From positions 1 through 64,000 of the forward strand of contig JANYFR010000021.1 of assembly GCA_025362585.1 (NCBI GenBank): a DNA stretch of 64,000 bases. Reading direction: 5' to 3'. Below the pieces are notes generated by a model. That model was not told where the DNA came from and made no database searches. It was given only the letters and a program-made list of their open reading frames with translations. Shown here piece after piece: positions 20,039-23,082 of the stretch (its first letter is position 1; the number at the start of each line of letters is the position of its first letter). Both the position numbers and the translations under genes were made by a program. This DNA is from Acidimicrobiales bacterium (lineage in GTDB: Bacteria > Actinomycetota > Acidimicrobiia > Acidimicrobiales > RAAP-2).

Positions 20039-21388
20039 TCAACCACTCGTGGGGAACGAGAAGGTCAACTCGAGGCCACCGAGTGCCCCCTTCGCCGTTG
20101 CCATGGTCCCACCCAGTCCTTCGGCGATGTCGGCCATGATGCTCATGCCGAGGCCGGAGCCCCCGGTGTCACGTGATCGCGACTGGTCGAACCGTTGAAA
20201 GCGCTGCGGGCGCACCCCGTACTCGGGCAGCCCATCCCCCGCGTCACCGATTCGCAAGACCACGCGGCCACTCTCACGGGCCAGGTGAACCTGGACGGCG
20301 GTGCCACTCAGGGTGTGGCGCACGATGTTGTTGAGCGAATTCGTGAGGAGCCGATCGAGAAGGTCGGCCCGGGCGCGGACGTGGAGGCTAGGCGCGACCT
20401 CAATCGTCACGGGGCGCGACGGATGGTCACTCGCAAACTCCTCGGCGCGCGCGCGCACCAGCGCACTGAAGTTAACCTCACTGTCGAGATGAGGCGGTGC
20501 TTCGCGGACTTCGGCCGAGAGAAGGAGGTCGGCCACGAGTGAATCCATTCGATCGATCTCGCGACGGACGCGTACGACCGCTCGGGCGCGTTGATCGTCG
20601 TTAATCGAGGGATTCTCCATCAGTTCGTTGTAACCCTTGATCACCGTGAGGGGCGTGCGAAGTTCGTGGCTGGCGTCACCGATGAACTGCTGCATTGCTT
20701 CGACGCTCCTCGTCTCCATGGCAATGCGTTGGTGCAGGGCTTCGACCATGGTCGCGAGGGCGCCCTGGAGCTCGCGGACGTCACGACTGCCCGCGCTCGG
20801 CGGTATCGCGCCGCGGTCGTCACCGCGCGCCACGTCGCTGGCGTAGCCAATCAGCCGCGCCATCGTGAGCAGGTCCTTGCGCATCACCAGTCGGGCCAGG
20901 ACCAGCACGACGAGGGCCACCAACATTCCCGCGAGCGCCACCTCCCCGGCCAGGCGTTGATTCTGCTTGGTGATTGCCCGTGTCGAGCCCGCCACGACGA
21001 GAAAGTCACCGCCGCCCGCGATGAGTGATCGAAGGCGAAAGCCCGGCAGGTCCGCGACGGCGCGCACGCGGCCGAGCGACGCACGCACGTCGGCGAGCGT
21101 CGGGTTGCTCGTCAACGCCACTTCCGGGGTGTTCACCTGCACGACGGCCCCCGTGGGATCAACGACGTCGAGGGTCAAGTTGTAACTGTTCAGGTCGACG
21201 ACGTTGAGCGCGTCACTGAGAGCGGCGTTGGGGTGGCCGAGGCCACTGACGACGACCGCGTTGATCGTGCCGTCGAGAGTGGCGTACTGGGATCGGGTGC
21301 TCGCCGCGACGGCGAACCATCCGACCGACAGGGCCACCATCGTGGTGAGCACAATCAACAAGATGGTGAGACGAGTGGCAATCTTCAC
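20039..21388 (-). CDS. sensor histidine kinase (HAMP, HisKA, HATPase)
   Basis: A 449-aa membrane kinase partnered with the adjacent response regulator. TM1 is at about 8-29, then an extracytoplasmic sensor of about 120 aa, TM2 at about 150-168 and a HAMP linker. The H box ASHELRTPLTVIKGY carries the phospho-His, the N box is NSLNNIVRHT, and the G boxes are GDAGDGLP and GGSGLGMSIM, all intact. The start is GTG, sharing one base with the regulator stop (TAGTG), so the two genes are co-translated. The signal is unknown. Confidence 0.93.
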   Translation of the reverse strand: MKIATRLTILLIVLTTMVALSVGWFAVAASTRSQYATLDGTINAVVVSGLGHPNAALSDALNVVDLNSYNLTLDVVDPTGAVVQVNTPEVALTSNPTLADVRASLGRVRAVADLPGFRLRSLIAGGGDFLVVAGSTRAITKQNQRLAGEVALAGMLVALVVLVLARLVMRKDLLTMARLIGYASDVARGDDRGAIPPSAGSRDVRELQGALATMVEALHQRIAMETRSVEAMQQFIGDASHELRTPLTVIKGYNELMENPSINDDQRARAVVRVRREIDRMDSLVADLLLSAEVREAPPHLDSEVNFSALVRARAEEFASDHPSRPVTIEVAPSLHVRARADLLDRLLTNSLNNIVRHTLSGTAVQVHLARESGRVVLRIGDAGDGLPEYGVRPQRFQRFDQSRSRDTGGSGLGMSIMADIAEGLGGTMATAKGALGGLELTFSFPTSG

Positions 21389-22074
21389 TACTGAACGTTC
21401 AAACTGACGAGTTTGAAGCCGACTCCTCTCACGGTCGTTATCGGCGCGAAGCCCTCGTGGTGGATTTTGCGTCGCAGGTACGAGATGTAGGTGTCCAGTA
21501 CGGACGTCTCGGAGTCGAAGTCAATGTTCCATACCTCACGCAGCAGCTGCTCGCGGGTGACGAGTCGGTCCTTGCGCTCCAGGAGCACCTCGAGCAGACG
21601 AAATTCGGTGGCGGACAGTTCGACCGGACGTTCGTTGACGATGATCTCGTGACGGTCGACGTTCATTGCGATTGGTCCAGCCCCCAGTACCAGGTCCCCC
21701 GATGTGCCAATGGCCGAGCGGCGCAGAATCGCCGCGATTCGCAATAGGATCTCCTCCAGACTGAAGGGCTTGCGGACGTAGTCGTCGGCGCCGAATCGTA
21801 GGCCCTTCGCGACGTCGACGGCCGAGTCCCGTGCCGACAGCATCAGCACGGGGGTCACCGTGTCGTGTTCGCGCAGTTTCGCCAGAAACTCGAATCCATC
21901 CATCGTCGGCATATTGATGTCGACAATGCAAAGGTCGGCATCATGGCGACGGAGCAGATCGAGAGCCTCGGCACCGTTGGAGGCGAGTTCGGTCTGGTAG
22001 CCGGCGATCTCGAGCGCGTCACGCAAAAGGTCGCGCACGCCCGGCTCGTCGTCCACCACCAAGATCGTCGTCAT
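21388..22074 (-). CDS. OmpR/PhoP-family response regulator
   Basis: A 228-aa regulator. The receiver domain has DDE at the acidic pocket (VVDDEPG), phospho-Asp in CIVDINMP, the conserved LSAR and Lys in VRKPFS. The C-terminal winged helix (LSATEFRLLEVLLERKDRLVTREQLLREVW ... YISYLRRKI) is of the OmpR class. The track starts at 22116, but MTTILVVDDE (22074) is the family start, and its ATG overlaps a short upstream ORF stop (ATGA). It lies upstream of the kinase and divergent from two secreted-protein genes whose promoters carry 11-bp direct repeats of the PhoP type. Confidence 0.93.
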   Translation of the reverse strand: MTTILVVDDEPGVRDLLRDALEIAGYQTELASNGAEALDLLRRHDADLCIVDINMPTMDGFEFLAKLREHDTVTPVLMLSARDSAVDVAKGLRFGADDYVRKPFSLEEILLRIAAILRRSAIGTSGDLVLGAGPIAMNVDRHEIIVNERPVELSATEFRLLEVLLERKDRLVTREQLLREVWNIDFDSETSVLDTYISYLRRKIHHEGFAPITTVRGVGFKLVSLNVQ

Positions 22075-22088: not shown

Positions 22089-22144
22089 GGTGCGAGCGTA
22101 GCCCTCCCTCGACCACTCACGGGCTTCGAACGTCCGGTTGACTT

Positions 22145-22199
22145 TCACAGAGTCTTATCAAACAGCGCACAGGATTCTCGAAATCTGTTGTCGTACCGT
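22145..22199 (+). promoter_or_regulatory. regulated promoter with 11-bp-period direct repeats (secreted gene 1)
   Basis: TCACAGA (22145), TATCAAA (22156) and GCACAGG (22167) sit 11 bases apart; the last overlaps the -35 position. TACCGT (22194-22199) is the -10. The same geometry precedes secreted gene 2. OmpR/PhoP regulators, such as mycobacterial PhoP on TCACAGC-N4-TCACAGC, bind this kind of repeat. The adjacent divergent response regulator is the obvious candidate. Confidence 0.55.
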
Positions 22200-22227
22200 G
22201 AACAGTGTTCCTTTGAAAGGGGTCACT

Positions 22228-22902
22228 ATGAATCGTTTCAGCACCCGAGGTGTCGTTGCCGTGAGCATGATCGCGGCCCTGGGTCTCAGCACCCCGGCCG
22301 TCGCGTTCGCCGACACCACCACCACGACCGCCGCACCGTCGACGACCACGACGGTGTCAACGATGTCGACCACGATGGTCAAGGTCAACCACGCGAACGC
22401 CTGGCGGCAATGGCGTCACGCCGAGGAGGCCTACCTCGACGAGCTCAAGGTAATCAACCGAACTTTTCGCGCCACTGTCGAAGTCGCCCGCGACGCCTAC
22501 CGAGCGGCGATCAAGGCCTCGCGAGGCTCGAACAACGGCTCGGCCGCGCGACTGGCCGCGCGTGCCGCACTCACGCTCTCTATCGCCAACGCAATGGGCG
22601 CGCGCGCCACGGCCCTGACGTCCCTCGGAGCTCCTCCGGCGCCCCCGTCGGGTTCGGAGCGGTCGGCGTACATTCTGGCACTACAGGGAATCAACGAGAC
22701 GTACCGCACCACGGTCGCCGCCGCTGACGCGACCTTCGCCGCCGCGTTCGCCACGACCACGACCGGCGCCCAGCGCGCCACCGTTCGCGCCGCGTTGGAG
22801 CTGTCCATTGCCAACGCCGCCGTGGTTCGCGCCGCGGCGCTGACGACGCTCGGGGCGCCCCCGTCGTCATACTCGACATCGATGACGACCGCGGGCGCCT
22901 GA
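22228..22902 (+). CDS. secreted two-repeat protein of unknown family
   Basis: A 224-aa exported protein. The signal peptide (about 1-28) ends in AVAFA, followed by a Thr-rich linker (TTTTTAAPSTTTT). Two copies of a roughly 66-aa, Ala-rich, probably helical repeat follow (about 68-138 and 147-213), each with AY..xL..IN.T[FY]R at the front and [AV]RAAL.LSIANA...RA.ALT.LGAPP at the end. There is no Cys and no catalytic motif. ATG at 22228 follows GAAAGGGG; the track's TTG start adds a non-signal leader. It is divergent from the response regulator. A paralogue with one repeat lies 200 bases downstream. I do not recognise the family. Confidence 0.8.
   Translation: MNRFSTRGVVAVSMIAALGLSTPAVAFADTTTTTAAPSTTTTVSTMSTTMVKVNHANAWRQWRHAEEAYLDELKVINRTFRATVEVARDAYRAAIKASRGSNNGSAARLAARAALTLSIANAMGARATALTSLGAPPAPPSGSERSAYILALQGINETYRTTVAAADATFAAAFATTTTGAQRATVRAALELSIANAAVVRAAALTTLGAPPSSYSTSMTTAGA
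22429..22866 (+). repeat. tandem protein-coding repeat, two units
   Basis: Unit 1 spans about 22429-22641 and unit 2 about 22666-22866. They align best at INRTFRATV/INETYRTTV and at LSIANAMGARATALTSLGAPP/LSIANAAVVRAAALTTLGAPP. The units have diverged in the middle, so this is an old duplication. The single unit in the next gene (residues 50-116) belongs to the same family. Confidence 0.75.
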
Positions 22903-22915
22903 CCAACCGCAACCC

Positions 22916-22956
22916 GGTCCAGCGCGCGGCCCGTCCCGGGGGCGGCGCGCTGGACC
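22916..22956 (+). terminator. strong GC-rich hairpin after secreted gene 1
   Basis: A perfect 12-bp inverted repeat GGTCCAGCGCGC / GCGCGCTGGACC with a 17-base loop, starting 14 bases after the stop codon. No clear U tract follows, as is usual for high-GC actinobacterial terminators. It would separate the two secreted-protein genes into different transcripts. Confidence 0.65.
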
Positions 22957-23027
22957 GCTGCTCTGCGTGACCGCGACTGGCGGTGATGAGAGAGTCGGGG
23001 TCACTTTGAACTCGCCCAACGCGCTCT

Positions 23028-23082
23028 TCACAATAGATATTCATCCACTTCACAGGAGTTTCCAAAGATCCGCCGATACTGT
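23028..23082 (+). promoter_or_regulatory. regulated promoter with 11-bp-period direct repeats (secreted gene 2)
   Basis: TCACAAT (23028), ATTCATC (23039) and TCACAGG (23050) are 11 bases apart, and TACTGT (23077-23082) is the -10. Repeat-to--10 spacing is identical to that of secreted gene 1 (GGA to TAC is 22 bases in both). CACAGGA, TCNAAA, TAC.GTG and the GTTCC...GAANGGGNTCAC leader are shared. Common control of both genes is likely. Confidence 0.55.

Follow-up and report, generated by a model that had tools for sequence, protein, structure and literature searches.

A conserved four-unit direct-repeat array at promoters of secreted-protein genes and its probable use by an adjacent OmpR/PhoB-family two-component system in Acidimicrobiales

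Results

Genes of the locus

The window, the whole 64,000-nt stretch of DNA that was analyzed, falls within a 2.09-Mb draft genome of an Acidimicrobiales bacterium. It contains the genes of a sensor histidine kinase (HK) and a response regulator (RR) and, divergent from this pair, the genes S1 and S2 (Table 1). Lumazine synthase and other riboflavin genes lie 3' of S1 and S2. The RR combines a receiver domain with a winged-helix Trans_reg_C domain and has a HisKA kinase as its partner, as expected of the OmpR/PhoB family, and its best match in the PDB is Mycobacterium tuberculosis PhoP.

HK has one extracytoplasmic PAS/Cache-like domain flanked by two membrane helices (AF2 model of residues 1-220, pLDDT 85). 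When the model of this outer domain was compared by Foldseek, WalK and Cache domains were most alike, and the match to CpxA was weak (E 0.1). The resemblance to WalK/Cache sensors suggests a signal of the envelope or small-molecule type, and nothing more specific than that.

The S1 and S2 proteins are homologous (E 2e-11). Searches with S1 gave no Pfam, NCBIfam, or PDB family above the cut-off. The AF2 model of S1 consists of two helical hairpins with a pLDDT of ∼95 outside the leader and linker, and despite this confident model a Foldseek search for its fold gave no PDB match with E below 0.3. CpxAR and BaeSR are systems with PAS-like periplasmic sensor kinases that control small all-helical exported proteins (Spy and CpxP), and the locus resembles them in its PAS-like kinase sensor and its small helical secreted proteins. 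It differs from them in that S1 and S2 are unrelated to those proteins in sequence and lack a fold match in the PDB, and in that the host is an actinobacterium without such a periplasm. An identity of S1 and S2 as Spy/CpxP-type chaperones was rejected on the lack of a Pfam/NCBIfam family match and of a fold match.

Between S1 and the promoter of S2 lies a strong hairpin (−47.2 kcal/mol for a 76-nt stretch, z −3.8), in a region that also appears as a self-match. Because this hairpin follows S1, S2 probably depends on its own promoter box.

Table 1. Features of the HK-RR/S1-S2 locus and the third box of the genome (window positions unless a contig is named; promoter positions are relative to the inferred transcription start)
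Feature	Position	Strand	Remarks
HK, sensor histidine kinase	20039..21388	-	Pfam matches HisKA, HATPase_c
RR, OmpR/PhoB-family response regulator	21388..22074	-	Receiver and Trans_reg_C (Pfam E 1e-33, 2e-24); ATG at 22074
Putative -10 of RR-HK operon, TACGCT	22095..22100	-	∼20 nt from RR start in relatives
S1 promoter unit 1, TTCACAG	22144..22150	+	-62 to -56
S1 promoter unit 2, TTATCAA	22155..22161	+	-51 to -45; degenerate
S1 promoter unit 3, CGCACAG	22166..22172	+	-40 to -34
S1 promoter unit 4, CTCGAAA	22177..22183	+	-29 to -23
S1 -10, TACCGT	22194..22199	+	Exactly 10 nt past unit 4
S1, secreted protein, 224 aa	22228..22902	+	Signal peptide, Thr-rich linker, two ∼70-aa helical hairpins
GC hairpin	22915..22957	+	Strong, terminator-like, no T tract; between S1 and S2 promoter
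S2 promoter unit 1, TTCACAA	23027..23033	+	
S2 promoter unit 2, TATTCAT	23038..23044	+	Degenerate
S2 promoter unit 3, TTCACAG	23049..23055	+	
S2 promoter unit 4, TTCCAAA	23060..23066	+	
S2 -10, TACTGT	23077..23082	+	Exactly 10 nt past unit 4
S2, secreted S1 paralogue, 123 aa	23107..23478	+	Signal peptide, Thr-rich linker, one hairpin repeat
Third box of this genome (L194)	C21:28906-28938		Profile search E 0.02

Repeat arrays of the S1 and S2 promoters

The promoters of S1 and S2 each contain four 7-bp units with the consensus TTCACAG and an exact period of 11 bp, the sequence pattern of a direct-repeat operator. A first-pass annotation of the window had described three such repeats per promoter. 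All six heptamers that it named are present, as are the two TACNGT boxes, and its 11-bp period holds, but each promoter has four units, and the units start one base earlier. When the last T of the -10 element is set as -7, which defines the inferred transcription start, units 1 and 2 span -62 to -41 and units 3 and 4 span -40 to -19, so that this downstream pair is centered at about -29.5. The gap between unit 4 and the TAnnnT of the -10 is exactly 10 nt in 32 of the 33 promoters compared; the scan for this gap favored distances of 9-11 nt, of which 9 was taken by none of the 33 promoters and 11 by one. No σ70 -35/-10 pair was found in the S1/S2 promoter region. The architecture is thus like that of PhoB promoters, with a repeat over the -35 position, a fixed distance to the -10, and no σ70 -35.

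When the window was scanned with a position weight matrix (PWM) built from 30 boxes, with this genome and its nearest kin left out, the S2 and S1 promoters (44.5 and 24.3 bits, respectively) ranked first and second among ∼128,000 positions, and the third-best position scored 9.5 bits. Among 4 million random positions of the same dinucleotide composition as the window, none reached either score. The held-out PWM and these Markov controls rule out a chance resemblance between the two promoters. Since S1 and S2 are paralogous, however, their promoters are not independent cases, and independence rests on the relatives.

Conservation of the array in related genomes

Analysis of related genomes showed that the HK-RR/secreted gene order and the array recur together in more than 50 genomes of the Acidimicrobiaceae type. 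This was the recurrence for which the first-pass annotation had proposed to search, and the pattern that it considered adverse, genes kept and repeats lost, is not what the relatives show: the repeats are retained almost wherever the genes are. The members of the clade that depart from the pattern are L090 and L091, in which the array is weak, and L111, L119, and L121, which lack a clear array; L086 is a further exception, owing to Ns. The relatives with the locus belong to the same genus or come from bog, palsa, fen, and mine material, with labels that are mostly Acidimicrobiaceae or Actinomycetes, and at most of their HK-RR loci the secreted gene or genes are followed by lumazine synthase.

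In an alignment of 30 RR-linked intergenic regions, the information content was 1.29, 1.39, and 1.29 bits per position in units 1, 3, and 4, respectively, and 1.20 in the -10, compared with 0.23 in the 10-nt gap and 0.10 in the preceding 30 nt. Unit 2, at 0.26 bit per position, is weakly kept in these promoters; the middle copies of the first-pass annotation are therefore weak, although correctly placed in the 11-bp register. Where the RR homologue is 53-57% identical (L123-L126), the last two units persist before the secreted gene, and at loci of other groups with RR homologues of ∼50% identity or less (L127-L132) the array is absent.

Two further observations were made among these genomes. 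In genome G035, a second RR, 66% identical, has its own box and secreted gene, so that the whole module is duplicated (L184, contig C55). In addition, four contigs that encode the RR or a relative of it (L076, L091, L113, and L128) carry the labels Candidatus Saccharibacteria, Acidobacteriota/Acidobacteria, or Bifidobacterium breve; judged by their content, they are probably mislabelled or mis-binned actinobacterial contigs.

Boxes before unlinked genes

A profile search of 81 genomes, in which stricter filters were used above 40 genomes, found between one and five boxes per genome in most members of the genus. This search missed the S1 site of the present genome, which a direct PWM scan recovered. 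Paralogues of the S genes that are unlinked to the RR and lie in other gene neighborhoods bear the same box. At these unlinked paralogues position -55 stands out, as scored with a PWM from linked promoters only, and 7 of 12 of their promoters have two more units upstream, in phase.

Genes were also read downstream of the sites away from both the RR locus and the known S genes. With signal peptides judged by eye, 21 of the 23 unlinked non-S sites in the genus (E ≤ 0.05) precede genes for proteins with a signal peptide. The products include a secreted helical family of 241-244 aa (L158, L152, L165, L182, and L185; hereafter the 243-aa family), DUF5666-like proteins, and some others. A Pfam search with a member of the helical family (L158) gave no match. 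Among the DUF5666-like proteins one matches Pfam PF18914 at 7e-24, and several are His-rich. A literature search for DUF5666 as a known two-component target returned nothing relevant.

The third box of the present genome belongs to this set. It reads TTCTATG-AGCACAG-CTCACAC-CTCACAA, followed after 10 nt by AAGACT, and precedes a gene for a secreted His-rich DUF5666-like protein that is cut by the contig end. The first-pass annotation had regarded the locus as a small, self-contained signaling system. That description fits in part and is too narrow, as most relatives also have the box in front of secreted genes that are unlinked to the RR, and this genome has one such case, on C21.

These data also bear on whether the repeats could be functionless remnants of a promoter or gene duplication, given that S1 and S2 are homologous and share ancestry. 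More than 50 species retain the units, whereas the flanks are at background level, and the array also precedes the non-homologous DUF5666-like and 243-aa families. Because non-homologous secreted genes bear the box, duplication alone is ruled out as the explanation, and we regard remnants without function as extremely improbable.

The probable regulator of the array

The presence of the box was compared with that of the RR in 49 genomes of the same genus. The RR is present in 41 of them, and the box was found by profile in 40 of these and by direct reading of the locus in the remaining one (G033). Seven of the eight genomes without the RR have no box, and the eighth has just one weak site (E 0.044), which falls within a long open reading frame. 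The co-occurrence is significant by Fisher's test (2e-9, or 7e-7 with both exceptions counted against it), with kinship among the genomes ignored.

The recognition helix of the RR, SVLDTYISYLRRKI, is near-invariant in the box-bearing loci where it was read. The residues of M. tuberculosis PhoP that contact bases are Asn212, Val213, Glu215, Ser216, Tyr217, and Tyr220 (PMC4832192). In the RR helix, Val and both Tyr are kept, and Asp and Thr are conservative replacements.

The genome encodes seven full OmpR-type RRs, and it is therefore possible to ask whether the array is regulated by another of them, such as those on contigs C63 or C40, or by several, with the window RR a bystander. Their recognition helices are similar (VYIGYLRRK) and have Tyr217, Tyr220, and LRRK in common. 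Yet it is the window RR that the array adjoins in more than 50 genomes and with which the box is jointly present or absent across the genus, and only the window RR has the Ser219 of PhoP. It is also the closest of the seven to M. tuberculosis PhoP (162 bits versus 155 for the next), although with the window RR as the query PrrA and RegX3 score nearly as high as PhoP. Control by a different RR thus appears improbable.

The position of the box and its 11-bp repeats are those of SARP boxes, and the genome has two weaker or partial Trans_reg_C matches in longer open frames (840 and 328 aa). The box might accordingly be a SARP-type operator for a protein that has an OmpR-type DNA-binding domain and is not part of a two-component system. 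We give this very little credence, as the box is linked to and co-occurs with an ordinary RR with receiver and Trans_reg_C domains. The RR itself was rejected as a SARP activator, since a receiver domain is present and a BTA match is absent. Against the NCBIfam equivalogs (PhoB, MtrA, or similar), all scores shown for the RR were below the cut-off. For PhoB the score was 176 bits against a cut-off of 296, and all these identities were rejected; a PhoB/PhoP phosphate regulon was likewise set aside, as the equivalog cut-offs were missed and the targets are secreted proteins.

Based on the conservation of the array, its co-occurrence with the RR, and the recognition helix, the RR very probably activates S1 and S2 through the 11-bp repeats, as the first-pass annotation had proposed.

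Discussion

A probable two-component switch for secreted proteins

Our preferred reading, to which we assign a probability of roughly 0.84, is that HK and RR, encoded divergently from S1 and S2, work as a two-component system and activate these two genes, together with one or more unlinked secreted genes, through the four-unit array. In the model, HK would phosphorylate the RR on an envelope or environmental signal. The four TTCACAG units would then be occupied by RR monomers in head-to-tail order, as stacked tandem dimers. On units 3 and 4, the phosphorylated RR would take the place of the absent -35 and seat σ region 4 beside the TAnnnT -10, while units 1 and 2 would strengthen binding and probably contact the α subunit of RNA polymerase. 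This would switch on S1 and S2 and, away from the locus, at least the gene for the secreted DUF5666-like protein on C21. The switch and its strictly spaced DNA tag, which is very probably its binding site, add a well-supported case to a familiar form of bacterial control.

The proposed docking of σ draws together an AfsR-like geometry with a true two-component RR, the tandem binding of PhoP, and the replacement of the -35. M. tuberculosis PhoP binds TCACAGC-N4-TCACAGC as tandem dimers, and its affinity is higher for three or four repeats (PMC4832192). PhoPR and the present system have in common an OmpR-family RR, a TCACAG core, 7-bp units with 4-bp spacers, a nearly identical recognition helix, and, in some PhoP promoters, sites over the -35 (PMC3413638). 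The window RR is ∼41% identical to M. tuberculosis PhoP, to which it is the closest of the seven RRs by only a small margin. The systems differ in that here four units are the rule and the gap to the -10 is an exact 10 nt, and in that the PhoPR regulon takes up ∼2% of the genome, whereas here a small regulon of secreted proteins is found.

Where a PhoB or PhoP site stands in for the -35, contact with σ is implied (PMC3413638). In the pho box of Escherichia coli, two 11-bp direct repeats replace the -35 of a σ70-type promoter (PMC3413638, PMC3348028, PMC4415409), as is proposed here, but the PhoB motif is another one, its targets are phosphate genes, and the present array has two extra upstream units. 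The SARP AfsR of Streptomyces adapts σ at an afs box centered at -29.5 (PMC10936776). The likeness extends to an OmpR-type DNA-binding domain, 11-bp repeats over the -35/-10 spacer, and a poor -35, whereas Streptomyces SARPs use two units and the present system has four to six units and a true RR with a receiver domain and partner kinase.

The predicted direction of control is read from promoter geometry alone. Unit 4 falls within the -35/-10 spacer, and the RR might bind the array and yet repress, for example by covering this spacer, with phosphorylation bringing relief. We consider repression quite improbable, since promoters without a -35 would be weak if they lacked an activator, the same position is an activating one for AfsR (afs box at -29.5, PMC10936776), and class II activation is the interpretation given to PhoP sites over the -35 (PMC3413638).

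With activation by the RR as the preferred reading, an unusually clean and testable regulon becomes available for a lineage represented here almost entirely by metagenomes: its binding code, the exact geometry of its promoters, and its targets, nearly all of which are uncharacterized exported proteins. The box could be used to find more families of secreted proteins in acid-peat and mine bacteria by their promoters, and a PhoB/SARP-like promoter whose -35 is replaced by an activator site can be compared across the relatives in dozens of natural variants. It is conceivable, if on balance unlikely, that in this uncultured acid-habitat lineage one dedicated PhoP-like switch controls a whole regulon of unannotated exported proteins (the helical-hairpin S family, the 243-aa helical family, and the His-rich DUF5666-like proteins) that jointly form a surface shield against stress or against metal and acid, with an S protein possibly feeding back on HK in the manner of CpxP.

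Control of the RR gene

The first-pass annotation had further suggested that the RR may control itself, and the positions of the elements give this no support. In nearly all relatives the putative -10 of the RR gene (GAGCGTA as read from the other side) is placed ∼20 nt from the start of the RR, and the array lies 15-55 bp beyond it, at a distance that varies between relatives. No separate box facing the RR gene was found at the RR loci examined. Given the variable distance of the array from this -10, a class II effect on the RR gene is unsupported; a more distant effect of the array may still operate.

In two other families of the order, box-like sites were found directly before OmpR-type RR genes (L196, G054:C1:3528821-3528865, and L177, G069:C209:13947-13993). 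These sites suggest that, beyond the genus, some RRs regulate themselves through TTCACAG operators of a similar type.
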